From contig NZ_MAOC01000091.1 of the NCBI RefSeq assembly GCF_001884135.1, positions 62,001-126,000 of the forward strand: a stretch of DNA of 64,000 bases. Reading direction: 5' to 3'. Origin of the DNA: Bacillus nitratireducens. GTDB taxonomy: Bacteria > Bacillota > Bacilli > Bacillales > Bacillaceae_G. Position numbers and translations under genes: made by a program. Shown here one piece after another: positions 34,369 to 54,449 of the stretch; the first letter of the stretch is position 1, and each line of letters begins with the position of its first letter. The notes beneath the pieces are model-generated. The model had not been told where the DNA came from. It worked only from the letters and a program-made list of their open reading frames with translations, and made no database searches.

Positions 34369-35784
34369 ATGAAAAAACAAGCAATCACTGTCATTTCAAC
34401 CGCGTTAACATGTTTTTTACTTTCTAATGTAGGACATGCTCAGGAAAAACCTAAGCAATATTACACCGTTTTATTAAAAGACCCATCAAAATTTGAGCAA
34501 GGCATCACTGAGATAAAAAAGGAGAATGGAGAAATTACTTATACTGTCCCGGAGATAGGACTCATTCAATTCAAAGGAGATACACAAATTTCTAAAAATC
34601 AATCTCCCTTATTTGAATCAGTTAATCCTTCTTTGCAAGTCGAAAAACCAGAGGTTCCTCATTCCATAAAAATGCCTAATTTATCAACTCTTTCAACAAA
34701 AACATTAGATACAAACCTACCTCCCTTATGGGATATGCAATGGGACATGAAGGAAATTACTCATAATGGAGAAAGTTATAAAAAAGAAACTGGCTCTCAT
34801 AATGTGGTTGTTGGAATTATTGATTCAGGAGTCGATGTGGATCATCCTGACTTAGTAAAAAACCTTATTCCTGGATCTAAAAACTTCGTTCCAAAGGGAG
34901 GATTGAGAGGTACTGAACCTGAAGAGACAGGTGATATTAATAATATAAATGATATCAATGGCCATGGAACTCTCGTTTCAGGATCTATTGCTGCAAATGG
35001 GGAATTAAAAGGCGTTGCTCCTGATACGGGAATCAGAGCATATCGTGTATTTGGAAATAAATCAGCTGATGCAGCCTGGGTCATTAATGCCATCATCGAA
35101 GCAGCTAAGGATGATGTAGATGTTATCAACCTTAGTCTTGGTTCCTATTATGTAAATGGAAAAGTCTATGAAAATGGAAAACTTGTAGACAATGGATGGG
35201 CAGAAGTAGAAGGTTACAAACGTGCTATAGAATATGCCAATCAGCATGGTAGTGTAGTAGTAGCTTCTGCAGGAAATGATTCTGTAAACGTGGCTAATAA
35301 ACAAGAGCTAAATAACTTTCTTAAACAAAAATATGAAAAAGAGGGGAAAATATTTACTGGTGTAGGAATAGAAGCACCTGGGGAATTACCAGGTGTAGTA
35401 ACAGTGTCATCAACTGGTCCAACCGGACAACGTTCTGTATTCTCTAATTACGGAGAAGGGGTCATTGACATATCTGCTCCAGGAGGAGATTATCGTTTAT
35501 GGCAACAATATGGCGAAGAGGTATGGTGGAATACTGGTCTTTTCCGACAAGAGGAAGTACTGACAACTTTTAATACTGGAAGATACTTATTTGCCGCTGG
35601 TACATCAATGGCAGTTCCGAAAGTATCCGCTACACTAGCTCTAATTATCAATCACTATAATTTTAAAAATCAACCGAAAAGATCAATTTCACACCTTTAC
35701 AAAAACGGAATAAAGAAAGATATAGCACCTGATAAAGCCTCTTGGGGGAACGGACAGCTGGACGTATATAATGCTATTAAATAA
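34369..35784 (+). CDS. lanP: LanP-type subtilase, lantibiotic leader peptidase
   Basis: 471 residues. Signal peptide to about residue 24 (GHA-QEK), pro-region to about 120, then a subtilisin domain with Asp152 (GIIDSGVDVDHPD), His199 (NGHGTLVSG), oxyanion Asn303 (SAGNDS) and Ser413 (GTSMAVPK; Val replaces the usual Ala). The catalytic domain has the inserted loop (GSYYVNGKVYENGKLVDNGWAEVEGYKRAI) typical of EpiP/NisP-like lantibiotic proteases. It ends without a wall-sorting motif, so it is released like EpiP. The role is to remove the precursor's leader after export, here predicted after Pro-Gln. It is convergent with lanK, and the nearest downstream element is a terminator. Start ATG after AAGTAAGGGGATAATT. 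Confidence 0.88.
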   Translation: MKKQAITVISTALTCFLLSNVGHAQEKPKQYYTVLLKDPSKFEQGITEIKKENGEITYTVPEIGLIQFKGDTQISKNQSPLFESVNPSLQVEKPEVPHSIKMPNLSTLSTKTLDTNLPPLWDMQWDMKEITHNGESYKKETGSHNVVVGIIDSGVDVDHPDLVKNLIPGSKNFVPKGGLRGTEPEETGDINNINDINGHGTLVSGSIAANGELKGVAPDTGIRAYRVFGNKSADAAWVINAIIEAAKDDVDVINLSLGSYYVNGKVYENGKLVDNGWAEVEGYKRAIEYANQHGSVVVASAGNDSVNVANKQELNNFLKQKYEKEGKIFTGVGIEAPGELPGVVTVSSTGPTGQRSVFSNYGEGVIDISAPGGDYRLWQQYGEEVWWNTGLFRQEEVLTTFNTGRYLFAAGTSMAVPKVSATLALIINHYNFKNQPKRSISHLYKNGIKKDIAPDKASWGNGQLDVYNAIK

Positions 35785-35786
35785 TG

Positions 35787-35818
35787 AAAAGGAACTATGA
35801 CAATTCATAGTTCCTTTT
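35787..35818 (+). terminator. Terminator of lanP
   Basis: AAAAGGAACTATGA (35787-35800) and TCATAGTTCCTTTT (35805-35818), then TT. It overlaps the last codons of the convergent kinase gene. Confidence 0.85.
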
Positions 35819-37249
35819 TTCGTTACTAAAAAGAGAATGTATCGTGAATGAAATGCATGCCCCTTGAATCTCATTATTTTCAGCATGAATTTCTCCACCG
35901 TGTTTTTTAACCAATTTTTCCACGATATACAAACCAAGTCCATGATGTAGTTGATTTGACCTTGAAAGGTCACCCTGGTAGAATTTGCTAAATAAAAACG
36001 GAATATCTTTTGTATTAAATCCAACCCCAGAATCCGAGATAGAAAAAGACATAACGTCTTTTTCTATCTCCACTTGCACATCAATTCTTCCTTTTTTTGG
36101 AGTAAAACGAATGCTATTAGAAATAATATTCGTAAGAATTTGATGCAAACGATTCGGATCAAGTGCAAACTTAAGATTTTTTTCTTCTGATTTAATAAGT
36201 AAAGTATAGGTTAATTGTATATCTTCATTTTCTGCCAATTCCTTAAACTCTTCAAGCATTTCTGGAATCATTTCAGCTGGAGCTATATTGCAAATCATAA
36301 GAGTGAAATCAGGGTTGTCCACTTCAGAGACTCTCCTCATTTCTTCTGTTAAATGCAATACTCTTTCTGTATTATTCTTAATTGTTTGCAAGTAGTGATG
36401 AATCCGTTTTTGATTATTCGGCATGGGTTCCATTAATACTTCTACATGAGACAAAATAATAGTTAACGGTGTTCGCAAATCATGTGCAATGGAAGCAACT
36501 ATATCCCGACGTTCCTGTTCTAATTTCCATTGAACATACAATGAATTTTTTAATTCTTCCTTCATACTATTGAAAGAATCAATTAATATACCTATTTCAT
36601 TTTCACTTTCATATTTTATTTCAAAGTCTAAATCCTTGTTTTTAATTTTTTGTGAGGCCATTACTACCTCTTTGATAGGTTTATTCAACTGTTTTCCTAA
36701 ACGCTTAGCTAATAAATAAGAATAAAGCGTTAAAAATATAAAAGGAACAAGAAAAGCAATAATAAATACATATTCTATGTAATAATCAATAGATGCAGCT
36801 AATATGTATCGTGCAGCAAGCACACCAACTAGTTTACCATGACTTATAATTGGAATGTATTTTGTAATTAGTTTACCATTTTGAGTAGATGTATTTATTT
36901 TATGATACACTTCTTTATCATTTTTCAATAATTCATCGCTTAATGTACCATATAATCTATTTCCATTCGTATTCATAACTTGATAAGTAATTCCTTGCAT
37001 TGGAATCACTTTCTCTAGTTTTTTTTGATAGGATAAATCTACTATTTTATCCCCATTCATTTCTACAAATTTTTCAATGCTAGGCACTTGTTTTTCATAA
37101 TGGTTGGCAGGTAAAACAGATTTTTCATTATAAATAAAAAGAAACGAGTATATTAAAATTAACGTACAAACCGTACTGACAATACTTAAAAATATTACAG
37201 CTGCAAATGTTAGAATAAATTGGTTTTTCAACGATAATTTTTTTAACAT
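35795..37249 (-). CDS. lanK: LanK-type sensor histidine kinase
   Basis: 484 residues from the ATG at 37249, which shares its A with the regulator's stop (TAATG); an ATG two codons earlier is too close to GGAG. TM1 at about 10-40, an extracytoplasmic sensor of about 110 residues, TM2 at 160-185, HAMP, then HisKA with His256 in ASIAHDLRTPL, and HATPase with NIISNSIRFTPKKG, DSGVGF and HGLGLYIVEKL. The large outside domain is like SpaK/NisK rather than the tiny-loop BceS kinases, although a BceAB-like transporter sits upstream in the same run. Likely senses the mature lantibiotic or a related envelope signal. Confidence 0.85.
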   Translation of the reverse strand: MLKKLSLKNQFILTFAAVIFLSIVSTVCTLILIYSFLFIYNEKSVLPANHYEKQVPSIEKFVEMNGDKIVDLSYQKKLEKVIPMQGITYQVMNTNGNRLYGTLSDELLKNDKEVYHKINTSTQNGKLITKYIPIISHGKLVGVLAARYILAASIDYYIEYVFIIAFLVPFIFLTLYSYLLAKRLGKQLNKPIKEVVMASQKIKNKDLDFEIKYESENEIGILIDSFNSMKEELKNSLYVQWKLEQERRDIVASIAHDLRTPLTIILSHVEVLMEPMPNNQKRIHHYLQTIKNNTERVLHLTEEMRRVSEVDNPDFTLMICNIAPAEMIPEMLEEFKELAENEDIQLTYTLLIKSEEKNLKFALDPNRLHQILTNIISNSIRFTPKKGRIDVQVEIEKDVMSFSISDSGVGFNTKDIPFLFSKFYQGDLSRSNQLHHGLGLYIVEKLVKKHGGEIHAENNEIQGACISFTIHSLFSNEKRNYELS

Positions 37250-37929
37250 TAACATTTCTCCAACTTATAGCCAACTCCCCATACGGTTTTAATATGGTAA
37301 GTTGACATACCTAAACTTAACTTAGCTCTTAAGTTATTAATATGTACTATTATTGTATTGAGATCCCCAACTGCATCCAGCCCCCAAATTTTTTCATAAA
37401 TTTGTTCCTTAGAAAAGATTTGTCCTAGATTTACCGTTAAAAGCTCTAATATTTTAAACTCTTTACTCGTTACATCTATTTTTACTCCATCAATGAAAAC
37501 ATCATGCTGTGAATAGTTAATGGTCAAGTTTCCTAAGAAACGTTGATTTTGCAAGTTTACACGTTCTCTTTTCTCACGCCTCAAGTGGGCCTCAACACGT
37601 GCAATTAGCTCCCTAACTTGGAATGGTTTTGTAATATAGTCATCTCCACCTAAAGTAAAGCCTTTTACTTTATCTATTTCTGAATGTTTAGCACTCAAAA
37701 ATAGAATCGGGCATTTTATTTGTTCACGAACGACCTTACAAAATTCAAAACCGTCCATTTTAGGCATCATAATATCTAAAATGACTAAATCAACTTGTGT
37801 TTTTAAATGATCTAGCGCTTGTTCTCCATTGTAGGCCTTGAGAACTTTATAATCACGATCAGAGAATATATCAGAGAGTACATCTACTATTTCTGACTCA
37901 TCATCTACAACAAGAATCGTTCCATTCAT
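37249..37929 (-). CDS. lanR: LanR-type OmpR-family response regulator
   Basis: 226 residues. Receiver 1-115 with Asp9-Asp10 (VVDDES), phospho-acceptor Asp52 (VILDIMMPKMDG) and Lys103. OmpR/PhoB winged helix follows at 130-226 (DVTSKEFKILELLTVNLGQIFSKEQIYEKIWG and HIKTVWGVGYKL). Partner of the overlapping LanK. Expected to switch on production and/or immunity genes. RBS AAAGGAG before the ATG; 63 bases separate it from the end of the BceB-like gene. Confidence 0.9.
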   Translation of the reverse strand: MNGTILVVDDESEIVDVLSDIFSDRDYKVLKAYNGEQALDHLKTQVDLVILDIMMPKMDGFEFCKVVREQIKCPILFLSAKHSEIDKVKGFTLGGDDYITKPFQVRELIARVEAHLRREKRERVNLQNQRFLGNLTINYSQHDVFIDGVKIDVTSKEFKILELLTVNLGQIFSKEQIYEKIWGLDAVGDLNTIIVHINNLRAKLSLGMSTYHIKTVWGVGYKLEKC

Positions 37930-37992
37930 AAAAAAACACTCCTTTCTAGTTTAGATTAAAAATCTTATTATTTCGTAAAATATATTTTCTTG

Positions 37993-39840
37993 TTAATTAA
38001 TATTCTTTTCATGAACAACTTTTTTATAGTAATAGTGGTTTGAAATGAAGAAAAATATCAATTGGAAGACTAAGAAAATAAAAAATATTAATATTATTGA
38101 GTAAATTTTAATTCCTCCCAATATATTTTGCAAGGCATAGATTGCTATAAACAGATTTATCCCCCCCAGAATAATTGGTACAAAGAAAATTATAGCAATT
38201 TGAACCCTTAATGTTTTTTTTATTTCATTGAAATTCAAACCAATTTTTCTTAAAGAGTGAAATATTTTTCTATCATTAGATATATCTTCATATAACTTAA
38301 ACCAAAGAAGACTGGATAAAGCAATTAACAAGATAAAACCGATAAATAATGCTATTATCCATAAAACTGAAGTTAATTGAACTGTATTTTCATAATGTAG
38401 AAGACGAACACTGGACTGTTCCTTTATCTCTAAAGGGAGTGTCTCAAATAATTTTTTTAGTGCACTATAACCTTTATTATTTTCCTTGAAATCTAATGTG
38501 TAAAATGAAACATGTTGAGTAGGTAATGATCCCTTCTCTAATTCATTAAAAGTATCTGCTGGTACAAAAGCTACATTATCTATCCAAGATACCGAGTTAA
38601 TCGCCTGTTTTTCGACCATATTTTTTACTATCAATTTTGTATTACCGTTATTTGTTTGGATATGCAACTTATCGATATTCTCATTTTTTTTACTAAATAA
38701 CAGGTTATCTTTTTTTGTTTCTGTCCAGTCCTTTATAAAGAATGAATCTGTTTGTAGTATAAAGGTTTTACCTTCTCCCTTTGATGAATTCAGTAATATA
38801 CCTTCCCATTTTTTCTTATGAAATCCCTCAACCTCTCCTTTGAAGTTTTTCTCTAAAGCAGATTCTAGTGTATTCTCTTGTTTTTTATCAACAATAAATA
38901 TAGCTGGCTGTGGGTGGCTATTTCGCATTCTTTGATCATTCAACTCTGAATATAAATATATGGAGCTGATTAATATCATTATCATTGATAAGAGTATTGA
39001 AACAAGGAAGATAATTTTAGCATTATAATAAAGCTTTTTCCTTAGACTTATAAATATTAGCATTCGAATGCCATTTAAATGCTTTTTTTCTTTATTGATT
39101 AAATAGGATACAGTCCCTACTAATCCGTGCGAACAAAAAAGGTACGTTCCTAATAATAAAAGAGTAGCTACAGGTAGAAAAGAGAATAATAGTACGGGTA
39201 AAGATGCATTAAGGATAAAAACATAAGAAATAACCAAAATTAACAGGGAAATAATGAATTTCTTCTTTGAAAACCTAGGTAAATCCTTTGGTTTTCTTGT
39301 CTCTTGAAATAATTCCAAAACAGAAATGCGTCCGATTTTATAATAACTACGCAATGAAACAAAAAAGAACAGAACTCCAAACAAAATAACTGTAAAAAAG
39401 GTAGCAATTGGAGAGAAGAAATAGGAAAATGACTCGCTTAAGAAGAGCGATTTCCCGATGAAATCAAAAAAGCTTTTGGATAGTACTATACCAATCATAA
39501 TCCCAATTAAGATAGAAATTGCTCCAATTATCGAATTTTCTAAAACTATGATAATAAATAATTGTTTTTTTGAAGCTCCGAATGTTTTCCAAATACCAAT
39601 TTCCTTTTTCCGTTCAGTAAGAAAATGGTCATAAGAATATGAAATGAAAAAGCATGAAAATAGCAAGATGATGAATTCACACGCAATTAACAGTTGCTCT
39701 ATTCCAGAAACTTTTGGATATGCAAGAAATGCTGCGTACATATAAAAAATTGTAACTGATAGAATACAACTTACAAGATACACTATATACAGTGAAAGAT
39801 TGCGAGTTATATTTTTAAGTGCGAGTGAAAATATTGACAT
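37993..39840 (-). CDS. BceB/FtsX-like ABC permease, antimicrobial-peptide resistance
   Basis: 615 residues from the ATG at 39840 (MSIFSLALKNITRNLSLYIVYLVSC); upstream in-frame starts lie inside the ATPase gene. About ten membrane segments arranged 1 + 3 + 2 + 1 + 3, with an extracytoplasmic domain of roughly 190 residues between TM7 and TM8 (EKNFKGEVEGFHKKKW to NTVQLTS), which is the BceB signature. FtsX-like stretch near the start (YDHFLTERKKEIGIWKTFGASKKQL). BceAB-type exporters free lipid II intermediates from bound peptides, so this probably gives extra self-protection beyond LanFEG. Overlaps the ATPase gene by 26 bases. Confidence 0.85.
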   Translation of the reverse strand: MSIFSLALKNITRNLSLYIVYLVSCILSVTIFYMYAAFLAYPKVSGIEQLLIACEFIILLFSCFFISYSYDHFLTERKKEIGIWKTFGASKKQLFIIIVLENSIIGAISILIGIMIGIVLSKSFFDFIGKSLFLSESFSYFFSPIATFFTVILFGVLFFFVSLRSYYKIGRISVLELFQETRKPKDLPRFSKKKFIISLLILVISYVFILNASLPVLLFSFLPVATLLLLGTYLFCSHGLVGTVSYLINKEKKHLNGIRMLIFISLRKKLYYNAKIIFLVSILLSMIMILISSIYLYSELNDQRMRNSHPQPAIFIVDKKQENTLESALEKNFKGEVEGFHKKKWEGILLNSSKGEGKTFILQTDSFFIKDWTETKKDNLLFSKKNENIDKLHIQTNNGNTKLIVKNMVEKQAINSVSWIDNVAFVPADTFNELEKGSLPTQHVSFYTLDFKENNKGYSALKKLFETLPLEIKEQSSVRLLHYENTVQLTSVLWIIALFIGFILLIALSSLLWFKLYEDISNDRKIFHSLRKIGLNFNEIKKTLRVQIAIIFFVPIILGGINLFIAIYALQNILGGIKIYSIILIFFIFLVFQLIFFFISNHYYYKKVVHEKNIN

Positions 39841-40594
39841 CATTCTCCCCCACTTCTTTAGATATATAGAGTAGTATACGTTGATTGAAACTGAATTGCT
39901 TTTCTTCATGGGAACGTTGCATCTCATGAACAATCTTGCCATCTTTCAAAAATATGACCCTGTTGCAAAAACTAGCAGCTACAGAGTCGTGAGTTACCAT
40001 TAAGATTGTTGATTTATGTGTTTCATTCAATGTTTTTAGTATATTCAATACATCATAAGCAGATTTTGAATCTAGATTTCCCGTCGGTTCATCAGCAAAT
40101 AACAGATAAGGATCGTTAATTAACGAACGAATAATAGCAGCTCTTTGCTGTTGTCCCCCAGAGATCTCATAGGGATACTTTGGCAAAAGCGGTTCAATAT
40201 TTAGTTCATTCACTAATGTTTCGAGTTTATCCCTAACACCCTTTTTGCTCCCCATTCTTAAAGCTGCGGGTAGAAGAATATTTTCTTCAATTGTTAAGTG
40301 ATCTAACAAATTGTAATTTTGGAAAATAAAACCAATATTTTCACGACGATAATTGCTTAATTGATCACTATTCATATTAGTTAAATTCTGTCCCTTAATT
40401 GTAATTTCTCCATTTGAAGGAAAATCAAGAGAGGAAAGCACATTTAAAAGTGTAGACTTTCCACTCCCTGAAGGTCCCATAATCCCTACAAAATCTCCTT
40501 CATGAACAGTTAAGTTGACATTGTTTAAAACTGGATATTCTTGGAAATTAGTTTTATAAACTTTCTCAATTCCTTTAGCTTCTAACATAATCAT
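39815..40594 (-). CDS. BceA-like ABC transporter ATPase
   Basis: 259 residues. Walker A GPSGSGKST (about 40-48), Q-loop FIFQNYNLL, signature SGGQQQRAAI, Walker B YLLFADEPTGNLD, H-loop TILMVTHD. Closest in look to MacB/BceA-type ATPases that pair with FtsX-like permeases, and the permease follows in overlap. GGGAGG six bases before the ATG fixes the start. Powers antimicrobial-peptide detoxification. Confidence 0.9.
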   Translation of the reverse strand: MIMLEAKGIEKVYKTNFQEYPVLNNVNLTVHEGDFVGIMGPSGSGKSTLLNVLSSLDFPSNGEITIKGQNLTNMNSDQLSNYRRENIGFIFQNYNLLDHLTIEENILLPAALRMGSKKGVRDKLETLVNELNIEPLLPKYPYEISGGQQQRAAIIRSLINDPYLLFADEPTGNLDSKSAYDVLNILKTLNETHKSTILMVTHDSVAASFCNRVIFLKDGKIVHEMQRSHEEKQFSFNQRILLYISKEVGENDVNIFTRT

Positions 40595-40619
40595 GGTAAA
40601 CCTCCCTTCTATCCTTTTA

Positions 40620-41378
40620 TTAACATGTAAATTCTTTTTTATTCCAAATGCTTATACAAACGCTAACACTAATAATCATGATACCTAGAATCAGGACGTA
40701 TAAAGTGTTACTTCCTGTGCTGAGAGCATGGAAGATACTTTGAACGGATAATAAAAAGAACGATAACTGACTTATGTACAAGCAGCCGATGTAAATTCCA
40801 ATCAGAAGGAAAAAGCTAATAACTGCATTTGAAATTATGATACTTATTAAACTAGCAATAGCTAAACCACACATTTGAATAACAAAAAACAATCCATATA
40901 CTTGTACCGTATAGAATATTGCTTCTATAGAGGTCTTTTGTTGACCGTAGAAAGTAAAAGCATCATCTGCTTTAAAAAACACCAACCCAAGTACTATGCC
41001 AATAAAAAGAACAACAAATAAGTAGAGTAATACCATTACAGAAAGAGAAAACCATTTTGACATAAGAAAGGTTAATCGTTGAAAAGGCCTAATTAAAAAT
41101 AGACGATATGCTCCTGAGTTGTATTCTACATTTAAGCTATTCAAGAAACATACAGGCATGAAAATCAAAGTAATTAAGAAAGAAGATTCCTTTAATAAAA
41201 ACCATGAAAAATTCCAAGAATTTAGTGGCACTTGTTGCCCATCATTATAAATCCCAACCCCATAGTACTTCAAAAACCAAGCTTGAAGAAAAACAATAAC
41301 AGTAAAAATCCCCAACATCCATTTACTTTTTTTCTGATTCCATAGTCGTTCCCATTCACTTATAACTAATGCTTTCAA
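40620..41378 (-). CDS. lanG: LanG-type immunity ABC permease
   Basis: 252 residues from a TTG start (41376-41378) seven bases after GGAGGG. Six membrane segments; the N-terminal signature LVISEWERLWNQKKSKWML matches the first segment of the preceding permease (LFISEFERLWTQKITWIIL), the usual relation of LanE and LanG. Contains the E-Y-N-S-G-A-Y-R-L coupling stretch. With LanF and LanE it forms the exporter that expels the mature lantibiotic from the membrane. Confidence 0.85.
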   Translation of the reverse strand: MKALVISEWERLWNQKKSKWMLGIFTVIVFLQAWFLKYYGVGIYNDGQQVPLNSWNFSWFLLKESSFLITLIFMPVCFLNSLNVEYNSGAYRLFLIRPFQRLTFLMSKWFSLSVMVLLYLFVVLFIGIVLGLVFFKADDAFTFYGQQKTSIEAIFYTVQVYGLFFVIQMCGLAIASLISIIISNAVISFFLLIGIYIGCLYISQLSFFLLSVQSIFHALSTGSNTLYVLILGIMIISVSVCISIWNKKEFTC

Positions 41379-41397
41379 TTGAACTCCCTCCTAGTTT

Positions 41398-42228
41398 TCA
41401 AATAAAATAATCTCTTTTCACAAATGATAAGTATGCGAACACTCCAAATAGGAAAATATAAATCGCTTCCACTATAACAATGTAAATGTTTATACTATTA
41501 CTTGATGAAAGTAGAAATGCTATACCTGTATGCTGAATTTTAACGATTGACATGTACATAAGATGTAGTACAGTATTAGCGCTAATTATCGTTTGGCTAG
41601 AGAATTCTAAAATCTGTGGAATTGCAATAGCAAAGAAAATAAAGGCCACCCCTGATCCAAGAGTAATCATCGTACTTCTACTTAACGCCCCTATTAATGT
41701 AAATACAGAAACAATACAAATCATAGTAATGAAACATGCAAAGAAATACTTTAAGTTATATAGTATCGCCCCTGCAATAGAAACCTTGGTTTCATCTATA
41801 AATGTTATTAATGTATCTACTTTTGGAAAGAATAAATAGCCTGCTATGGAATTAAAAATCCAAAACAAAGTTAAATATAGGAACATGGTAGTTAATATAG
41901 TAGCAAGCTTAGCTACAAAAAGTTGTGAGGTAGAAAATGGACGAATCAAAATCATTCTTAATTGTCCATTTTCTACTTCATGCGCTATAACAGTAGAAAT
42001 CAGTATTATAGCAATAATATTAAACGAAACCACAAGATGCTCAGAAATACTTATTATAGGAAAATTTAAAGCAGTAACGTAATCTGGTCTTCCAGGAGAA
42101 GTATGTTGATTCCAGTTTAGATAATATTTAACTGACGCAACTACCATTAAAGGTAAGAAAAACAAGATTATCCAAGTTATTTTTTGCGTCCAAAGCCTTT
42201 CAAATTCAGAAATAAAAAGCCCCCTCAT
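41398..42228 (-). CDS. lanE: LanE-type immunity ABC permease
   Basis: 276 residues, six membrane segments. Same family as LanG, with the coupling segment EVENGQLRMILIRPFSTSQL after TM2. Its ATG overlaps the LanF stop (ATGA), so F-E-G are translationally coupled. ABC-2 type permease of the LanFEG immunity transporter. Confidence 0.87.
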   Translation of the reverse strand: MRGLFISEFERLWTQKITWIILFFLPLMVVASVKYYLNWNQHTSPGRPDYVTALNFPIISISEHLVVSFNIIAIILISTVIAHEVENGQLRMILIRPFSTSQLFVAKLATILTTMFLYLTLFWIFNSIAGYLFFPKVDTLITFIDETKVSIAGAILYNLKYFFACFITMICIVSVFTLIGALSRSTMITLGSGVAFIFFAIAIPQILEFSSQTIISANTVLHLMYMSIVKIQHTGIAFLLSSSNSINIYIVIVEAIYIFLFGVFAYLSFVKRDYFI

Positions 42229-42959
42229 GATGTCATCATCTCCACAAACACATCTTCCAACCTTTTTGTTGGATCTGTAATTAACTCTTCTTTCCTTCCT
42301 TGGGTGATAAGCTTTCCATTTCTAATTATGACAAGGCGGTCACACATTTGCTGAATTTCATCTAGTAAATGGCTTGAAATAAAAAAGGTTAAATTTTTCT
42401 TTTCACGAAGTTCAAGAATTAATTCCCTTAGCTCTCTCATGCCCATAGGATCCAGACCATTGGCTGGCTCATCCAATAAAATAACATCTGGATCACCTAG
42501 AAGAGCTTGTGCAATCCCGAGTCGCTGTCTCATTCCTAATGAATAATTTTTAATTTTCACATCTGCATCTTCAGTTAACCTTACAATAGATAGTATTGCT
42601 TCTACTTGTTCCAATTGCTCCTTTCGAGAAAGAGCAGGGTATAATCTCGCTAAATTTTGTAGCATTTTTCTACCCGTCATATATGGGAAGAATATTGGTG
42701 ATTCGATAATTGCGCCCATATTCATCAAAGCCTGTTGTCTATTTTGATTTACATCTTGACCACTTATTTTTATGACTCCTTTTGTCGGGCGAATTAATCC
42801 TGTAAACATACGCATAACAGTTGTTTTTCCTGCCCCATTCGGCCCCAGAAAACCACAAATATCTCCTTTATATATTTTAGTTGAAAAATCATTTACTATT
42901 GTCTTGCCACCTACAGTTTTTGTTAAGTAATTTGCTTCTAAAACTATTTCATTATTCAT
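42225..42959 (-). CDS. lanF: LanF-type immunity ABC ATPase
   Basis: 244 residues from the ATG at 42959 (AAGGAGGGA six bases upstream), not from the longer frame. Walker A GPNGAGKTT, signature YSLGMRQRLGIAQALLG, Walker B VILLDEPANGLDPMG, H-loop FISSHLLDE. The Q-loop residue region reads MGAIIESPIFFP, with Glu in place of Gln, a hallmark of lantibiotic immunity LanF proteins (E-loop). This clinches the immunity assignment. Confidence 0.9.
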   Translation of the reverse strand: MNNEIVLEANYLTKTVGGKTIVNDFSTKIYKGDICGFLGPNGAGKTTVMRMFTGLIRPTKGVIKISGQDVNQNRQQALMNMGAIIESPIFFPYMTGRKMLQNLARLYPALSRKEQLEQVEAILSIVRLTEDADVKIKNYSLGMRQRLGIAQALLGDPDVILLDEPANGLDPMGMRELRELILELREKKNLTFFISSHLLDEIQQMCDRLVIIRNGKLITQGRKEELITDPTKRLEDVFVEMMTS

Positions 42960-43050: not shown

Positions 43051-43052
43051 AA

Positions 43053-43076
43053 AAAACTCACAATAATGTGAGTTTT
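43053..43076 (-). terminator. Terminator after lanD
   Basis: AAAACTCACA (43053-43062) and TGTGAGTTTT (43067-43076), 4-base loop, then T6 on the minus strand. It begins within the lanD stop codon. Confidence 0.85.
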
Positions 43077-46965: not shown

Positions 46966-49900
46966 TCTGATTCCTCCAATATCGCTGGCTTGATAAGATA
47001 TGCCGCGTAAAGGCAAGTGCTTTTTTTTCTAGTTCCCGATTAGCTCCCAATAGTCGATTACAATGCATATGAATAATTGCTCCCATAATTGTTTGCTGTT
47101 TATTCCAGAGCTTGTCTTCATTTTTATATTGTTTAATACTGGAAACATATTCTTTTAATGATTCTCTCCGAACTAATAGACTTTTATAAATCTCTAGTCC
47201 AATTGATGAATTGTAATTACGTAAATTATTCCAATCACCTTCAGGATTTCCAATGTTACTTAATAATTTTCTCATTGGTCTAAATTCATCCATGAATTCA
47301 TATTTATCTGTATTTCTTTCAATAGTTTCCAATTGTTGTTCATAAGTTAAACCAAAATTCTCCATAATCTCAATTATGTTTAAGGATGCCAGTGCATGTA
47401 CTGGCAGTTCAGCTTGTTGTCCGATCACATTAAGAAGCATTGTTACTGACCTACTATCGTAATGGAAGAAATTCTCGGCCAATTCTATCAGATACGGACC
47501 ACCATATCGCTCTACTTCTCGTTCATACGTATCAATCGTCATTTTGTGAATAAATCCAGAGTTCATTAAATTATTTGCCCAATCCCTTAAATGAGTAAGA
47601 ACAGATGCATTCAACTTCTTGGGATCTCCATAAAATCGCAAACGAATATGAGCATCTGGATCACGATATCGCATGAAGAACCATGATTGAGCCAAACCAT
47701 TTTGTACAATATTATTAGCAAATGATGTCATATATTTTGAAATAAATTCATTTTCTCTTGCTTGTGGAACATATAGCTTAACATATAGCCATTCACTTCC
47801 GGGCAAACGATAAATCATTTTCTCACTAACCATCTCTTTTTTTCCGTCTTCAACAGCTCCTAAACTCTTCCTTTTAGCGACATCGTTCATTTTTTTCAAC
47901 GGAAATACAACTTCCATTGCATGACTACCCAGCGGGCTGCTAAGGCAATTTTTATTGATGTCATGTAATGATTCCCTCAACTGTAATCTACCCTGCTTAA
48001 AAAGTTCATTCTTTAATTCTCGAAGATGAAGAATATTTTCAAGATCAATTAAAATTCTATTGTCACTATACGTCATAAATACATAGCGTGGAACAGCCCA
48101 TTTCACTCTCCATTTTTCAAATAGGATTAAAAATTCATCATCACTTTTAGGTTTATTTTTCATACCAATAGTTTCTCTATTTAACTTCCAAATTGCAGGA
48201 GACAGAATGATATTTTTGTAACGAATCCTTGGATAATAAGGTGAAGATGTCATATTACCCCAATTGAATGTTCTCCAGTGGTCTAAATCATTTAGGGAAA
48301 CTTCTCTCATAAAGCGATAAATATTAGGGCCACTTTGGTAATTTAGTACATTACCAGCTACCACCTTAATTCTTTTCCCTAATTTTTTAGATTTCAGATA
48401 AAAGTTTTCTAATGATGCTCCAACGACAATATCATCAATTGGAATTTGCAAAGTATCTTCATCTCCATTTGTTCCAAGGGTTACAGTTACTTCTCTTGTA
48501 GTTTTTCCAATTGCCACATTCGCTGAACGGCCAGTTGCCGGAAGAAAACTTCCCTCTACCATAACGACATCATTATTAAATTGATGGTCAATCTCCACTT
48601 CTTGTTGCTGAATTTCACGTCTAACATTTGGATCTAAGATATCTAAAAATCGACCAAATGTGCTTCCTGCTGCATGAGACCCTGGATTTGGGCTTAGGCA
48701 TAAATTATACTTTCCATTGTCTAATTCCTTTTGCGAAGTAGCATACAATTCTCCATATACTTCAAATGAATCTGGAGCGTATCGAGTATCTTTTTCTATT
48801 CCAATTCTGCTAATTATTTCATCAGTAATTTCAATTTCTTTTTGCTGATTATGAATAGCTTCAATAAGCATATATGATAATTGGACATTACGTTCTTCAT
48901 CTAAAGGCGGCGTAAAATTTTCTCCATCCCTATTTCCTTTTGGATTTTTATATGTCGCGGGTGCTCCAAGCCCTAATTCCTCACTTAAAAGTTCTACCAA
49001 TGGAACCTCCCTAGTTGTTCCGTATTTTTCTAAAAATTCAATATGATATTTTTGGAGATGAGGAAATCCAACTCCGCTATCGGCTATGCTCCATAACACT
49101 TGAGCTGCTTTACTAACATCATTTGCTACGTTTTTTCCTATAGCTAAATCATGCATATTTAAAGCGAAATCTACTTGAAGAGGCGTTGAAACTTCATAAA
49201 TCCCCTTCATTAATAGGATAAGATCGTTGTATATAGAAAGCCCCTTTCCAAGCTGTAATTGATCATAAACAAGTATTAAATCTTTTACCTTCAATAAATC
49301 TTCCCATATTTGATTTTCACCAACTCTTACTTTTAACTTGTCAATCACATAATCAAATGGGGAGTCATATGTAAGTGGCGGTCTTAGCTCAGTTATAAGG
49401 TATTCTTGCTCTACCAACTGGAGAATAAAGTTTTCCATTACCTTTATATCTGTGCCTGGATAGTCATTATTCAACTTTTGGAGAAGCTCTTTCACTGTAA
49501 TATGTGTTTCAGCTAAATCTAAAACTTTCTTAACAACTTCACTATATGTAATTGAAATATTTTCTTTTTTCTCCATATCTTTCTTACGAAGTTGTCCACA
49601 TTCAGTTGAAAAAGGTAAATATAGGCGGTTTCCGACACGATAAGTAGCATGATTTTTACTAACCATTAAAAATTGGAGAATACAAGGATTTTTTTCAAGT
49701 GATGAAACCACTCCCAATAACCATTCCATATCAGGCCGAGTTCTTTTCTTAAATTGTTCAAAATGGCTCATTTCAAGTAAAGATTTTTCTTTAAACTCTC
49801 CGGATGCTACCCCGGAAAAAGCTCCAAAAGGTGTTGGGCGTGTTGTCATTCTTAACATATATCGTAATACAGAAGATATTACTTGTTGTGTTTTCCTATT

Positions 49901-50152
49901 ACTTAAATCACCATGTATATATTTAAGAGATTCAAGCAATGAAGGACTTGCAATGGCAATGGCTTCCTTAATGTAATCCATTTCTGCATATTCCCTTAAT
50001 TTTTCAATCAATAATTCTTGATCCTTAATTTGATATAGTGCGTTAAATGGTAAAAACGGGGATCTAATCATAAAAAATGGTAGAGGTTCAAATATATTAT
50101 TACATGCGGTTTTATTTGATGTATGAATAGTCTTCCTTTTTTCTGTAATCAT
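46937..50152 (-). CDS. lanB: LanB, lantibiotic dehydratase
   Basis: 1,071 residues, slightly longer than EpiB/NisB (about 990). The N-terminal part (to about 740) is the glutamylation domain: FFMIRSPFLPFNALYQ, VISSVLRYMLRMTTRPTPFGAFSGVASG, and NLCLSPNPGSHAAGSTFGRF. The C-terminal SpaB_C elimination domain begins near 765 (EWLYVKLYVPQARENEFISKYMT; RYRDPDAHIRLRFYG). It activates Ser and Thr of the core with glutamyl-tRNA and eliminates to Dha/Dhb. It follows lanA after a partial terminator, the typical arrangement that gives excess precursor. The last 29 bases overlap lanT. Confidence 0.95.
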   Translation of the reverse strand: MITEKRKTIHTSNKTACNNIFEPLPFFMIRSPFLPFNALYQIKDQELLIEKLREYAEMDYIKEAIAIASPSLLESLKYIHGDLSNRKTQQVISSVLRYMLRMTTRPTPFGAFSGVASGEFKEKSLLEMSHFEQFKKRTRPDMEWLLGVVSSLEKNPCILQFLMVSKNHATYRVGNRLYLPFSTECGQLRKKDMEKKENISITYSEVVKKVLDLAETHITVKELLQKLNNDYPGTDIKVMENFILQLVEQEYLITELRPPLTYDSPFDYVIDKLKVRVGENQIWEDLLKVKDLILVYDQLQLGKGLSIYNDLILLMKGIYEVSTPLQVDFALNMHDLAIGKNVANDVSKAAQVLWSIADSGVGFPHLQKYHIEFLEKYGTTREVPLVELLSEELGLGAPATYKNPKGNRDGENFTPPLDEERNVQLSYMLIEAIHNQQKEIEITDEIISRIGIEKDTRYAPDSFEVYGELYATSQKELDNGKYNLCLSPNPGSHAAGSTFGRFLDILDPNVRREIQQQEVEIDHQFNNDVVMVEGSFLPATGRSANVAIGKTTREVTVTLGTNGDEDTLQIPIDDIVVGASLENFYLKSKKLGKRIKVVAGNVLNYQSGPNIYRFMREVSLNDLDHWRTFNWGNMTSSPYYPRIRYKNIILSPAIWKLNRETIGMKNKPKSDDEFLILFEKWRVKWAVPRYVFMTYSDNRILIDLENILHLRELKNELFKQGRLQLRESLHDINKNCLSSPLGSHAMEVVFPLKKMNDVAKRKSLGAVEDGKKEMVSEKMIYRLPGSEWLYVKLYVPQARENEFISKYMTSFANNIVQNGLAQSWFFMRYRDPDAHIRLRFYGDPKKLNASVLTHLRDWANNLMNSGFIHKMTIDTYEREVERYGGPYLIELAENFFHYDSRSVTMLLNVIGQQAELPVHALASLNIIEIMENFGLTYEQQLETIERNTDKYEFMDEFRPMRKLLSNIGNPEGDWNNLRNYNSSIGLEIYKSLLVRRESLKEYVSSIKQYKNEDKLWNKQQTIMGAIIHMHCNRLLGANRELEKKALAFTRHILSSQRYWRNQNETDTQSHT

Positions 50153-50195
50153 TTGGAATCTTCCCTTCTGTTCTAATCAAATATTATAATAGGAG

Positions 50196-50227
50196 AAAAA
50201 GAGGGACACATCTGTGTTCCCTCTTTT
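50196..50227 (-). terminator. Attenuator-like terminator between lanA and lanB
   Basis: AAAAAGAGGGACACA (50196-50210) and TGTGTTCCCTCTTTTT (50212-50227) form a stem with one bulge, 12 bases past the lanA stop. T5 follows on the minus strand. Leaky termination here would set a high lanA:lanB ratio, as in other lantibiotic operons. Confidence 0.75.
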
Positions 50228-50238
50228 TGGGCATTCAA

Positions 50239-50379
50239 TTAGCAACAGAAGCTATTGAATGAACCTGTGTTTCCACAGCCAGGCGTACAAGCTGAAATAC
50301 TTGTAATTTGTGGATCTACATCACCTGAAGCTGTTGTTACTTGAACATCTAAATCAAAAAGGTTTTTTTCGTTAATCAT
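50239..50379 (-). CDS. lanA: LanA, epidermin-like lanthipeptide precursor
   Basis: 46 codons with AGGGGG eight bases before the ATG. Leader residues 1-24 (MINEKNLFDLDV, ending DVDPQ) carry the F-D-L-D-V version of the class I FNLD box and a Pro-Gln cleavage site as in subtilin (epidermin has Pro-Arg). Core residues 25-46, 22 residues: Ile25-Thr26-Ser27, CTPGC at 31-35, TGSFNSFCC at 38-46. Mapping on epidermin predicts rings Ser27-Cys31, Thr32-Cys35, Ser40-Cys45, and Ser43-Cys46 with decarboxylated Cys46 (S-aminovinyl-cysteine); Thr38 becomes Dhb. Thr26 and Ser29 could also dehydrate. The first two rings form the lipid II cage conserved in nisin and epidermin. Differs from epidermin at several core positions, closest by memory to clausin. 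Confidence 0.95.
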   Translation of the reverse strand: MINEKNLFDLDVQVTTASGDVDPQITSISACTPGCGNTGSFNSFCC

Positions 50380-50618
50380 TTTCTTTTCCCCCTAAAATTT
50401 TTATTAAGACGTTATGTCTTATGTGTCTAATTTATCAGATAAATATCCTAGTAGAATCCGTATATTCCGCAAGTTTATATTGTAAATTCACGCATAATAA
50501 AAAAAATATATGTAAATTAAGTATTAAAAATTTAAGGACTATATTGAAAATATCCCGTTTTTATTGTATTTTTTTATATAGAACTAAAATACAGAATATT
50601 TGGAAAGAGGGTTTTTTT
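50380..50618. promoter_or_regulatory. Divergent control region between lanA and the quorum-sensing genes
   Basis: 239 AT-rich bases must carry both promoters. On the minus strand, toward lanA, TTGCGG (50472 to 50467) equals one half of the ComA box TTGCGG-N4-CCGCAA of B. subtilis; the second half is not conserved. AAGAC-GTTAT-GTCTT (50406-50420) is a short dyad 27 bases before the lanA start and could be an operator. No convincing -10 box for lanA was found. Confidence 0.45.
50544..50572 (+). promoter_or_regulatory. Promoter of the comX-like operon
   Basis: TTGAAA (50544-50549), 17-base spacer, TATTTT (50567-50572), 46 bases ahead of the pheromone-precursor ATG. Confidence 0.5.
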
Positions 50619-50792
50619 ATGAATAAAGCAATATGGGAATTTTTAATGGAGATGAAAAAAAACAAACTTACCTTTGAAACTTATGAATTATGTCCTTCAT
50701 TGGAGACACTATCAGTTGAAGAGCGAATTGTATTAGATGAGTATGCAAAGGATTTCCGGGTGAAAATTGATGGTGGAAATCAGTGGGTTTAA
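50619..50792 (+). CDS. comX: ComX-like quorum-sensing pheromone precursor
   Basis: 57 residues. GGAAAGAGGG lies seven bases before the ATG. Soluble, helical N-terminal region (MNKAIWEFLMEMKKNKLTF, LSVEERIVLDEYAKDF) and a C-terminal tail KIDGGNQWV with Trp56 next to last. ComX of B. subtilis is 55 residues with its isoprenylated Trp53 two residues from the C-terminus; length, hydrophobic N-terminal region and a lone C-terminal Trp match, but sequence identity is low, as always in this fast-evolving family. It overlaps the ComQ-like gene by 23 bases and comes before it, whereas in known operons comQ precedes comX. Identification rests on context and the Trp; there is another Trp6 at the N-terminus. 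Confidence 0.75.
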   Translation: MNKAIWEFLMEMKKNKLTFETYELCPSLETLSVEERIVLDEYAKDFRVKIDGGNQWV

Positions 50793-51735
50793 AGATTGTT
50801 TAATCAATCATATTGATTACCATATCTCCTACCGTAATCAAAGTGATGAATCTGAAATACTTCTACTTATTCAGAAATGTCTTTCTCATAAAGGAAAGAT
50901 TTTAAATCCTGAATCTTCTGGCTTCTCATGGGGAGAGCTATATCTAGCTCTTTCTTTTTTGACCAAACGACAACCAATAACAAAAAGAGAATTAGATAAG
51001 GCAATGGGGGTTGAATTTATCTTTTTATCAGCGGATATAATAGATGATTTGTGTGATGGAGACGTATTAGATCCATTATATTTTAAAAACGAATATCCTC
51101 GTTTTTTGTTAGTTTCTCAATATTTACTTATGCAAGGACTGATATACTTAACTTATAAGACAAAAGATACTGCAACACGAGATCTTCTCCAACAATTGAT
51201 ACATTCGTGTTGTGGAGAATGGAAAGATATCCAATTTTGTTTTTCAATAGATAAAAAAATAATTTTAAGTGAAGAAGAATATATGAAACTTATTGAAAAG
51301 AAATCTGGTCTACTCACAGAAATTATCTTTCGAACTATTAATCCTGAAAATAGATTTTTAAAAGAAATCACATCTTATATAGGGATAGCTGGTCAGCTAA
51401 GAAATGATGCTAATGATGCCATGACAGATAATAAAAATGACCTTCAGGACTTAAAGGCTTATCTTCCTTTTTTAAAAGCTTATGAATATAGTTGCAAAAC
51501 ACAGGATAATTTTTTTGAAAATTTAACGGATAAACAAATATCTTCTTCACCTGAAGTTCGGGCATTAGTCCGGGATTACATAGAACAATCTGGAGCACTA
51601 CACTATTGTCGTATCCTATCTCAACTATATTATAGAAAAGCATTTGCACTCTTAGAAATGCATTTTGTTCTTTCTAAAGACGAAATGACTTATTTTCAAA
51701 TGATGGTTATGGGCAGAGGTCACTCCTATGCGTAA
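50770..51735 (+). CDS. comQ: ComQ-like polyprenyl synthetase (pheromone isoprenyltransferase)
   Basis: 321 residues from the ATG at 50770; GGTGA six bases upstream. An all-helical isoprenyl synthase with a first Asp-rich motif DIIDDLCDGD (about 89-98) and a second region NDANDAMTDNKND (about 212-224), both in the places used by ComQ to bind Mg2+ and prenyl diphosphate. ComQ attaches a geranyl or farnesyl group to the ComX tryptophan and helps release the pheromone. Short for a chain-elongating synthase and embedded between pheromone, kinase and regulator genes, so the quorum-sensing assignment is strong. Overlaps comP-like by 8 bases. Confidence 0.87.
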   Translation: MVEISGFKDCLINHIDYHISYRNQSDESEILLLIQKCLSHKGKILNPESSGFSWGELYLALSFLTKRQPITKRELDKAMGVEFIFLSADIIDDLCDGDVLDPLYFKNEYPRFLLVSQYLLMQGLIYLTYKTKDTATRDLLQQLIHSCCGEWKDIQFCFSIDKKIILSEEEYMKLIEKKSGLLTEIIFRTINPENRFLKEITSYIGIAGQLRNDANDAMTDNKNDLQDLKAYLPFLKAYEYSCKTQDNFFENLTDKQISSSPEVRALVRDYIEQSGALHYCRILSQLYYRKAFALLEMHFVLSKDEMTYFQMMVMGRGHSYA

Positions 51736-53869
51736 TATTTGGTTCTGTATACCTTTAAGCATTTTATATTTATTAATACTTTTAATAAATAACTACTATT
51801 TTCACTCTAGTAATTTTAAAGAAAGCGTTAACTCTTTATTAATTAGTCATTTTTATATGATCAGCGTTATTAGTCTTATTTTTTTTACTATAGGATTAAT
51901 TAGCTTTTTAAAAAAAAGACAATCTATTGTAGCAAAAAAATTCTTTTCTCTAACATCAGTCTTTGGGATAGCTATTTTAACATCCTTATTATCTAGCTAT
52001 GATATAAATATTTTTAAAGCTATAGAGGTGAGTAGTATTTTTATGCTTTCTTATCTCTTAATAAGTTTTTTCTCTAATTTCCCTGTATCTACCAAACCAA
52101 AATATGTAAAAATATTCAACCTTGTATCATTTGTAATTTCAACAGGATTGACAATTATTTATATAATTTTTTGTTGTTTTGGATATATGTCTAACAATAA
52201 TTTTAGCTTTTTATTTAAAGTTTTACTAATTACTAACCTATTTCTGAGTATTAGCATCTGTGTTTTTCTTGTTTCATTACATTTACGAGAAAATAATCTT
52301 AAGGTGAAAAGTCAATTATATATTCTGATTTTTGGTATTATTCTTAGTTTTTTACCTATTGTTCTACTTAATCTGATTCCCGGTCTACTTTTTGGGGAAT
52401 CTAAAATTCCATTTACATATTGTTTACCTAGTATTATTATATTTCCTTTAACTATTTCTTATTTATTAATAAAGCAAGAAGTTATCGAATTTGAGATTAG
52501 AATTTCTAAATGGCTAACAAACTTACTCTTTTACTTGCTCAATTTCTTATTTTTTAATTTTTCAGTTGAGCAATTCATAGATTTGTCACAAAAAGAAATA
52601 TTTATACTATGCAGCTTAAGTGTATTATCTGTTGTACTCTCTGTATATATATATAAACTTATTCTCTCATTATTTAGGTATTTAAACATAAAAAAGGATG
52701 CACAATCAGGTTTACATAAGATTGAGCTTTTTCAAACACTCTCGAAGGAAAAACATGCTAAAGAGCTTGCGAAATTAGTCGGACAGCTTATTAACCAGAT
52801 GTTTAACATTAACGGCGTTTCCGTAATATGGAACTCAAATAGTATTTATCATTCATTATATGAGACAGGTATTTTTCAGGATATGGATAAATTTGAGCTG
52901 TTTAACCAATTGAATCAACTTGAACAGAATTACTTACTAAAGGAAGGTACTACTCCAATTCATATTCAGTTTGAAAAATACCACTTAATTTGTTTTCCAA
53001 TACTCATTTACCAAGGCATGCAGGGAGCTATTATTATTGGTGAAAAAAATGATTATACATTATTTAAACCTCAAGAAATTAATGAACTTGAAGAGGTTGT
53101 AATAAACTCGGCAAATTTACTATTAAGTGTTAATACTCTCAATAGTAATAAAAAAGAAATTCGAAAAGCAAAGGTAAAAGCTCAAAACTGGAAACAATTT
53201 AATTATCAGATTATTCAATCTCTAGAGAGTGAAAGGAAAAGGCTTTCGATTTTCTTACATGATGAAATTCTTCAAATTCTTATTTTGCAATTAAACGAAA
53301 TAAGAATGCTTCAGACCAAAAGAAACTTTTCTATAGACATATTAAATTCAATGGATGAGCAACTTGAAGATATTATCTATAGTATTAGAAAAATGTGTCA
53401 TAATCTTCACCCTATTATCGTAGAAGATTTAGGTTTAGAAGCGAGTTTACACACACTAAAACGCGAGTTCGAATTAAATTATCGCATTCTCATTCATATA
53501 CAATTTAATTGCAAATTAAAAATTCTCTCGAAAAATATCGAAATACAGATTTATCGTATTATAAAAGAGCTACTGAATAATGCTATAAAGCATTCCAAGG
53601 GGAATAATGTTCAAATACATATCATAGAAGAAAGAGGCTGCTATGTTTGTACTGTAGAAGATGACGGCATAGGCTTTTGTGTTCCGAACAGTTTTTCTGA
53701 ATTTAGTACAAGCAACCACCTTGGTCTAATGACCATCCAGCGTCAAATTTCCGAGTTGAACGGAAATTTGAGGATATCTTCTGAAAAAGAACATGGAACA
53801 TTAGTCACATTTACCATACCAGTAAATTGGGAGGAAAATAATGAGTATACATACACTACTAGTGGATGA
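51728..53869 (+). CDS. comP: ComP-like membrane sensor histidine kinase
   Basis: 713 residues. The N-terminal 310 residues hold about eight to ten hydrophobic segments, as in ComP, then a GAF-like middle (about 340-465) and a HisKA_3 domain with His511 in SERKRLSIFLHDEILQI. The HATPase has ELLNNAIKHSKG (Asn618), DDGIGF and TSNHLGLMTIQRQI. ComP is the receptor for isoprenylated ComX. AGAGG eight bases before the ATG. Overlaps both neighbours, consistent with a single translationally coupled operon. Confidence 0.9.
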   Translation: MRNIWFCIPLSILYLLILLINNYYFHSSNFKESVNSLLISHFYMISVISLIFFTIGLISFLKKRQSIVAKKFFSLTSVFGIAILTSLLSSYDINIFKAIEVSSIFMLSYLLISFFSNFPVSTKPKYVKIFNLVSFVISTGLTIIYIIFCCFGYMSNNNFSFLFKVLLITNLFLSISICVFLVSLHLRENNLKVKSQLYILIFGIILSFLPIVLLNLIPGLLFGESKIPFTYCLPSIIIFPLTISYLLIKQEVIEFEIRISKWLTNLLFYLLNFLFFNFSVEQFIDLSQKEIFILCSLSVLSVVLSVYIYKLILSLFRYLNIKKDAQSGLHKIELFQTLSKEKHAKELAKLVGQLINQMFNINGVSVIWNSNSIYHSLYETGIFQDMDKFELFNQLNQLEQNYLLKEGTTPIHIQFEKYHLICFPILIYQGMQGAIIIGEKNDYTLFKPQEINELEEVVINSANLLLSVNTLNSNKKEIRKAKVKAQNWKQFNYQIIQSLESERKRLSIFLHDEILQILILQLNEIRMLQTKRNFSIDILNSMDEQLEDIIYSIRKMCHNLHPIIVEDLGLEASLHTLKREFELNYRILIHIQFNCKLKILSKNIEIQIYRIIKELLNNAIKHSKGNNVQIHIIEERGCYVCTVEDDGIGFCVPNSFSEFSTSNHLGLMTIQRQISELNGNLRISSEKEHGTLVTFTIPVNWEENNEYTYTTSG

Positions 53870-54449
53870 CCATTTGTTGGTTATGCTAGGCATCCAAAGA
53901 CTACTAGAATCTGAGGAAGATATTGAGGTGATTAATACCGTTCACGATCCTTCCATATTAATTAAAACTGTGGAAGATACCCGTCCTGATGTAATTGTTA
54001 CAGACATCAGGATGAAGCAGTATAATGGTATTGAACTTACAAAAGATTTATTGTCAAAATTTCCGGATGTAAAGGTTGTAATTCTATCAGGATATGATCA
54101 TGAAGAATATTATAATGCGGCCTTTGAAGCTGGAGCAAGTGCATACATTACGAAAGAAAGATCAGCATTTGACCTAGCTAACGCAATTCGTCAAAGTCAC
54201 ATGGGATATATACTATTTTCTAAGAATCAGATTATAGGAAATAATATTGAAGCACTAACTTCTGCTGAACAAAGAATATTACTCTTAATCTCAAAAGATA
54301 AAACAAATTATGAGATTAGTACGGACCTTTCAATCAGTAAAAGAACTGTAGAATATCACATTTCTTCAATTATTAGAAAACTGGGTGTAGATTCAAGAGT
54401 TGGAGCAGTCGTAAAAGGGATTAAAAAAGGATTAATTGAAGGTTTTTAA
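53841..54449 (+). CDS. comA: ComA-like NarL-family response regulator
   Basis: 202 residues; GGAGG six bases before the ATG, inside the end of the kinase gene. Receiver 1-120 with Asp9-Asp10 (LLVDDHLL), phospho-acceptor Asp55 (VIVTDIRMKQYNG) and Lys105. LuxR HTH 138-200 (SAEQRILLLISKDKTNYEISTDLSISKRTVEYHISSIIRKLG). Likely target: the divergent lanthipeptide promoter 3.4 kb upstream, where one TTGCGG half-site is present. Last gene of the operon. Confidence 0.9.
   Translation: MSIHTLLVDDHLLVMLGIQRLLESEEDIEVINTVHDPSILIKTVEDTRPDVIVTDIRMKQYNGIELTKDLLSKFPDVKVVILSGYDHEEYYNAAFEAGASAYITKERSAFDLANAIRQSHMGYILFSKNQIIGNNIEALTSAEQRILLLISKDKTNYEISTDLSISKRTVEYHISSIIRKLGVDSRVGAVVKGIKKGLIEGF

Follow-up and report, generated by a model that had tools for sequence, protein, structure and literature searches.

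The ComQXPA quorum-sensing system of Bacillus subtilis comprises a prenyltransferase, a tryptophan-containing prepeptide, a membrane histidine kinase, and a NarL-type response regulator encoded on one strand, and its target promoters carry TTGCGG, the ComA half-site (PMC4797271); in canonical loci comQ precedes comX (PMC4008528). A 64-kb stretch of Bacillus nitratireducens DNA (the window, to whose full length coordinates refer unless a locus label is given) has four adjacent genes of these same functions on one strand, in the order X-Q-P-A. They lie beside a complete class I lanthipeptide island of the gallidermin/nisin family, recognized from the list of open reading frames (ORFs) and family scans, and the island and com-like genes together occupy 34369–54449. 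Our comparisons suggest that this ComQXPA variant quite probably controls the adjacent bacteriocin.

The combination of com and lantibiotic genes is not unprecedented, because links between ComX and class II lanthipeptides have been published: ComX has been found near such clusters in 22 genomes (PMC12715929), and comQXPA control of cerecidins has been predicted (PMC10456417). In these systems, from B. cereus and its relatives, a lantibiotic has ComX or comQXPA genes next to it, as in the window, and regulation is suggested; as those reports describe them, they are class II (LanM) clusters with a PF05952-type ComX and no cis-element shown, whereas the window cluster is class I. Unusual comQXPA-like loci were also collected in a 2014 census, which includes ComX-like ORFs (among them ones from B. 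cereus) lacking homology to known ComX except for a C-terminal tryptophan. There comQ and comP flank the hypothetical comX, which is sometimes on the opposite strand; we noted no X-first order, and the words "megaterium," "bacteriocin," and "lantibiotic" are absent from its main text (PMC4008528).

On the lanthipeptide side, the class I cluster on pBM700 of Priestia megaterium QM B1551 is already known; it is the same island as that of the window, with two identical lanA genes, and the report describing it uses none of the terms "comX," "polyprenyl," "isopren," and "LuxR" in its main text (PMC6165006). Our searches of the open-licence PMC literature identified no description of the shared promoter rule presented here, of a class I link, or of the X-first clade and its ComX family.

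The com-Like Module and the Promoters It Faces

All four com-like genes are on the plus strand, with successive overlaps of 23, 8, and 29 bp. The first (50619..50792) encodes a putative pheromone precursor of 57 amino acids, identified by its reading frame and ending in ..GGNQWV; the tryptophan, at position 56 of 57, is penultimate, and both length and residue agree with a prepeptide of 52–73 amino acids with a C-terminal tryptophan. The second, a comQ-like isoprenyl transferase gene (50770..51735, taken from the ATG at 50770; alignments began at the next codon, 50773), matches Pfam polyprenyl_synt (PF00348) at 38.4 bits against a cut-off of 27 and keeps both Asp-rich motifs, DDxxD (DDLCD) and NDxxD (NDAND). 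The comP-like gene (51728..53869) encodes a membrane histidine kinase with about 9–10 hydrophobic segments in its hydropathy profile, as in polytopic NarX-type kinases; HATPase_c (PF02518) is above its cut-off, HisKA_3 is sub-threshold (16 versus 24 bits), and H511 and N617 are invariant in a three-row alignment. The comA-like product (53841..54449) is a NarL/LuxR-type response regulator with Response_reg (PF00072) and GerE (PF00196) domains. The initial annotation had matched the four genes to ComX, ComQ, ComP, and ComA; the match stands for the domains of the last three and for the size and tryptophan of ComX, but not for membership of the ComX family or for canonical gene order, the B. subtilis order being Q-X-P-A.

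That annotation had also named grouping with ordinary prenyl synthases as an outcome that would speak against it. In a 19-row tree, the 12 ComQ rows, that of the window among them, were split from seven ordinary prenyl synthases (three HepT-like, Escherichia coli IspA, IspB, and two others) with support of 100/99. Eight X-Q-P-A rows formed a single group (99/98), with long branches flagged by the tree program, and this clade, which contains the window ComQ, is sister to canonical ComQ. Judged from sequence, the com module is a distinct X-Q-P-A clade and not canonical ComQXPA.

The module faces its adjacent candidate target operon, whereas the B. subtilis regulon is dispersed. In the 239-bp gap between the divergent lanA and comX genes (50380–50618), upstream-region alignment and site scans identified a ComA-type box, TTGCGGAATATACGGA (50457..50472, minus strand), oriented toward lanA and followed 19 nt on by an extended −10 element, TGATAAATT (50429..50437, minus strand). 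Aligning the regions upstream of lanA from the window, Priestia, and Alkalihalobacillus macyae gives the consensus TTGCGGWATATACGGA; the A. macyae box is exactly that of Priestia, though the rest of its promoter is little alike, and the window differs only at the W position. By eye, the end of the box coincides with the start of a would-be −35 element, as expected for an activator, and a weaker element (in the window ATGCGTGAATTTACAA, 50480..50495, minus strand) lies 23 bp upstream at the same spacing in all three. The TTGCGG half-site is thus present near lanA, but inside another 16-mer, TTGCGGWAWATACGGA, than the B. subtilis repeat TTGCGG-N4-CCGCAA, which does not occur near lanA within two mismatches.

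The exact 16-mer occurs once in the window, at 50457–50472. A second ComA-type box, GTACGGTATATACAGA (34224..34239, plus strand, three mismatches), precedes lanP and is followed 19 nt on by TGTTACCTT (34259–34267), so that a box with a fixed-spacing promoter is found at both ends of the island, in weaker form at lanP. Composite sites, defined as the box with TGnTAnnnT (at least four of five letters) 19–20 bp downstream, number three in 64 kb (at lanA, at lanP, and inside lanB, where it is attributed to chance); 60 shuffles gave a mean of 0.05 and a maximum of 1. Of 29 promoters compared, those of lanP aside, 24 have an extended −10 of at least four of five letters at a spacing of 19 or 20. This combination of box and promoter recurs ahead of lanA in Priestia and A. 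macyae, and also ahead of a circular bacteriocin gene, lactococcin-972-type genes, and the gene for a small non-bacteriocin protein. Because the box is oriented toward the target and not toward comX, there is no sign of positive feedback on signal production; such feedback is described as lacking in B. subtilis ComQXPA too (PMC7794433).

A dyad, TAAGAC-N5-GTCTTA (50405..50421), located directly past the lanA −10 and kept in Priestia, was considered as an operator. Such dyads clearly beat shuffles in five related loci (L055, L060, L064, L068, and L070; labels of this form denote loci in our set) but not in the window or Priestia, and the script ranked another window dyad first. Short dyads of varying sequence about 6–10 nt past the −10 in these five and in L059 might be operators or 5′ hairpins.

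The island is found on 12 plasmid records, 11 of P. megaterium and one of P. aryabhattai, with DNA identities to the window of about 70% in the com half and about 73% from lanA to lanC. A tblastn search with ComX matched the same 12 records and no other. Identities to these copies are 60–61% for ComX, 53–56% for ComQ, and 61% for ComP; for ComA, compared in four Priestia loci, the figure is 85%. Four annotated Priestia regions, with one to three copies of lanA, have the same gene order as the window from lanP to comA (in L005, lanB is annotated in two pieces). We estimated nonsynonymous (dN) and synonymous (dS) divergence between the window and pBM700 for 13 of the 17 island genes; dN (0.07–0.35) was below dS by a wide margin in all 13, and dS exceeded 1 in 11, ranging from 1.1 to infinite except for lanA (0.56) and comX (0.61). 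That the lan–com linkage has been kept despite such divergence argues against chance neighbours.

A P. megaterium plasmid locus (L009:8896–21244) holds a canonical comQXPA within a natural-product-like cluster (D-Ala ligase, acyl carrier protein, and amino acid–acyl carrier protein ligase). On an Anoxybacillus amylolyticus plasmid (L003:1–16543), which has a second ComX match, a canonical-order comQXPA has a lantibiotic-dehydratase/thiopeptide-type cluster on one side and an skf sporulation-killing-factor cluster on the other.

Relatives of the Module and the Genes behind the Box

The nearest lan systems we take to be the clausin/gallidermin/epidermin-type clusters. A LanA search of genome contigs returned 11 gallidermin-type loci, some of them short (L024 and L027), that share with the window a gallidermin-type LanA, LanB, and LanC and, in part, LanD and LanFEG; lanB was matched by tblastn in all 11. 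No ComQ match was obtained by tblastn at any of the 11, and ComP and ComA were matched at one, that of A. macyae (L019), where they are divergent from lanA (26% and 50% identity to the window proteins, respectively); the window has both ComQ and ComPA. A control set without ComPA, made up of the other ten loci and a Staphylococcus arlettae plasmid locus (11 loci, 199 kb), contained no box within two mismatches.

A broad ComQ model gave one strong match in each of the 11 lan genomes, three of which also had weak matches. In the three inspected (L029, L030, and L032), these were rejected as ComQ on the basis of an adjacent ubiE/menG-type methyltransferase gene (by eye) and placement in the prenyl-synthase clade. 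The only match to the model in the A. macyae genome was a HepT-like gene beside a ubiE/menG-type gene, not ComQ. The ComQ alignment found no relative in genome and viral contigs, which is weak evidence of absence, as the search patterns spanned short stretches.

Profiles extended the comparison. With a ComA profile (expect value E ≤1e-45), close relatives were detected in 22 genomes, that of A. macyae among them, out of 397 from its order; in its family they are patchy, being present in one of 15 genomes, A. macyae itself. We compared 20 of these loci (the 22 less L019, already covered from the LanA side, and one genome): comQ was matched by tblastn in six and a box within three mismatches was present in 13. 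The seven loci with no such box were L054, L056, L062, L065, L067, L069, and L072; L056 is cut by a contig end, and L065 and L067 have little DNA before comA. A ComQ profile detected relatives in seven of 398 genomes of the class and eight of 41 of one family (E ≤1e-35) and in six of 26 of another family (E ≤1e-45); these genome sets overlap, and three weaker class-level matches were left out.

The resulting set of 21 loci includes the window and two from Priestia. ComQ is present in 19, and in 18 of these a small ORF with a penultimate tryptophan abuts comQ; X precedes Q in all 18. A ComX profile built from nine of the 18 recovered the other nine, L097 weakly (E 0.0066). L098 has ComQ without an abutting tryptophan peptide ORF and without a box. 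The box precedes the com genes, on the strand oriented away from them, in 19 of the 21 loci; L097 instead has an exact copy directly past comA.

The gene behind the box in these 19 loci is lanA in four and a small or secreted-looking protein in seven (L053, L055, L059, L060, L093, L094, and L096). Family scans covered four of these seven: the L055 protein passes the TIGR03651 cut-off as a circular bacteriocin, that of L060 carries DUF2712, and those of L053 and L059 gave no match. No ORF was found near the box of L095. Among the loci with orphan comA, L064 has an adjacent lactococcin-972 protein above the PF09683 cut-off, and similar sequences occur in L066, L068, and L070; in these four and L071, comA is divergent from genes for lactococcin-972-type or similar secreted peptides, with a ComA box between.

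Partial or rearranged loci were also seen. By eye, similar neighbourhoods hold X-Q-P-A in L057 and L063, comP-comA in L061, and comA alone in L065 and L067, as if signal genes had been lost stepwise. L096 carries a second, degraded comX-like remnant (L096:13548–13804) beside another boxed promoter, and comQ of L059 is in two pieces around another ORF (L059:5920–8431). A record labelled Stenotrophomonas rhizophila (L011, CP065518.1) has ComP/ComA-like matches and a ComQ-like ORF very like that of a Lysinibacillus fusiformis plasmid (L008, by eye); its organism label looks doubtful.

A Proposed Circuit and Its Alternatives

The four com-like genes quite probably constitute a complete private quorum circuit of a distinct ComXQPA clade. 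We infer from family membership that ComQ would prenylate the penultimate tryptophan of ComX and that the C-terminal peptide would be exported and accumulate with cell number; from its domains, ComP would sense this peptide and phosphorylate ComA. ComA would then bind TTGCGGWATATACGGA, a cis-element recognized by comparison, adjoining the −35 region and with the extended −10 exactly 19 bp downstream, and would switch on the lanA operon, and probably lanP, in a density-dependent manner. LanRK and the BceAB-like transporter could supply a second input, sensing the product or stress. In related bacteria the same circuit, or ComA alone, appears to serve other bacteriocins and at least one small protein that is not bacteriocin-like. 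The initial annotation had suggested density control of the lantibiotic by its own travelling ComX-type circuit, with the LanRK pair as a second input, a view strengthened by the placement of ComQ among ComQ proteins, by the ComA-type box and promoter at lanA (less so at lanP) and by the presence of the whole island in Priestia, where its plasmid location fits the idea of travel.

Several observations weigh against this reading. Allowing three mismatches, the box has three window matches against 0.79 expected, a number reached in 3 of 100 shuffles; one match is far outside the island and another precedes lanP. The 19–20-bp spacing was set post hoc, from the first promoters inspected; five of the 29 promoters (L061, L063, L097, L100, and L103) have three of the five −10 letters, and the control set contains one three-mismatch composite (L026). 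The Priestia lanP box, TTGCGG[GA]ATATACTAG, lacks a −10 at that spacing (two of five letters, three records), which makes control less certain for lanP than for lanA. Many loci are close relatives or near-copies, and their counts are not independent. The ComX-like peptide has no PF05952 match at E 0.1 and no NCBIfam match (PF05952 gave 0 matches on the Priestia record), and a profile comparison (hhalign) of the ComX-like peptides with four canonical ComX gave a score that was not significant. The A. macyae locus combines ComPA and the box without ComQ or ComX, and ComPA may act there without a prenylated signal.

These last points bear on the alternative that ComPA controls lanA in response to a signal other than prenylated ComX, with ComP responding to the lantibiotic or some other cue, and with a different role for the ComQ-like enzyme. 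A. macyae and L061 both keep comP, comA, and the box with neither comQ nor comX at the locus, the one gene of the A. macyae genome that the ComQ model matches strongly is HepT-like, and ComX falls outside PF05952; yet comQ is paired with an abutting gene for a Trp-ending peptide in 18 of the 19 ComQ loci, ComQ retains the two Asp-rich motifs and clusters with ComQ proteins, and the loci with only ComPA can be read as losses of signal genes. We regard this alternative as unlikely. It is quite improbable that the module, though a real signalling system, is a mere neighbour and that only LanRK controls lanA, by autoinduction of the nisin type: the island does include a separate LanRK pair, and for ten of the 11 gallidermin-type LanA relatives the DNA examined gave no match to ComP or ComA, but the box and promoter spacing at lanA (and at the window lanP) were not seen in loci without ComPA, linkage persists with near-saturated synonymous sites, and the same clade stands beside unrelated bacteriocins.

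Beyond control of the lantibiotic by the ComX-type circuit, we lean slightly toward a broader proposal, drawn from the locus comparisons: that an unannotated X-Q-P-A family of tryptophan-peptide quorum systems across the Bacillales acts mainly as a movable bacteriocin switch (for lanthipeptide, circular, and lactococcin-972-type products) with one ComA box and one geometry. Strains with only ComPA, or with an orphan comA next to bacteriocin genes, may be eavesdroppers on a signal made by others. A further point against both readings, which lowers our confidence in the broader one, is that in seven loci of one family (L057, L061, L063, and L100–L103) the target behind the box is a non-bacteriocin-like protein of 64–83 amino acids. 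This recurring protein carries ..SSYDQYSATYLTELYYVIKKNIENGFLSSAM.., and its L057 and L063 versions have no Pfam or NCBIfam match above cut-off. If the proposal is correct, prenylated-peptide signalling of the ComX type would be a mobile means of controlling bacteriocins and not chiefly part of B. subtilis competence, the box with its 19-bp spacing would be a sequence rule that predicts targets, and silent lantibiotic clusters might be induced by this route. With the partial loci, direct tests of cheating and eavesdropping within a bacteriocin quorum system become possible.

Remaining Features of the Island and Its Surroundings

The full lan locus and, across 239 bases, the four overlapping divergent com-like genes described in the initial annotation were recovered at the same positions. 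LanA, LanB, LanC, LanT, LanP, LanFEG, and LanD with a C-terminal Cys are present, as in class I clusters; the assignment rests on family models, all scoring above their cut-offs, for A, B, C, D, and P and on likeness to annotated Priestia copies for T, F, E, and G. The precursor gene lanA (50239..50379, minus strand) encodes 46 amino acids with a gallidermin-like core ending in TGSFNSFCC, above the cut-offs of PF02052 (Gallidermin) and TIGR03731. It is followed on the minus strand by genes for the dehydratase LanB (46937..50152; PF04738 and PF14028), the exporter LanT (45082..46965; 77% identical to the Priestia copy, with ABC transporter models under their cut-offs), and the cyclase LanC (43709..45064; PF05147, 239.5 bits). 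The lanD gene (43075..43683; PF02441, 98.7 bits, above cut-off) encodes a flavoprotein, presumably an EpiD-type cysteine decarboxylase.

Beyond lanD, on the same strand, are genes for the immunity ATPase LanF (42225..42959) and the immunity permeases LanE (41398..42228) and LanG (40620..41378), respectively 88%, 79%, and 76% identical to the Priestia copies. Next come a BceA-like ATPase (39815..40594, 71%) and a permease (37993..39843; 57% to an annotated Priestia ABC permease) for which we keep the earlier label BceB-like. LanR (37249..37929) is an OmpR/VanR-type response regulator whose best NCBIfam matches, VanR models, are under their cut-offs, and LanK (35795..37255) is a HAMP-type sensor histidine kinase, 73% identical to a Priestia copy annotated as a HAMP sensor kinase. 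The subtilase-type leader protease gene lanP (34369..35784, plus strand; 471 amino acids; PF00082, 166.9 bits; 71% identity to the Priestia copy) closes the island.

No long flanking repeats (≥20 nt) were found at the island ends, and an Rfam scan of 30000–58000 and a tRNA scan gave no matches. A repeat search located a 21-bp inverted repeat 3′ of comA (54540..54585), a possible terminator. To the left of lanP, a short serine-recombinase-like ORF (33287–33571), seemingly truncated by eye, is perhaps a trace of the arrival of the island. Elsewhere in the window, one ORF of 595 amino acids (5800–7587) appears by eye to be a histidine kinase fused to a NarL-type response regulator.

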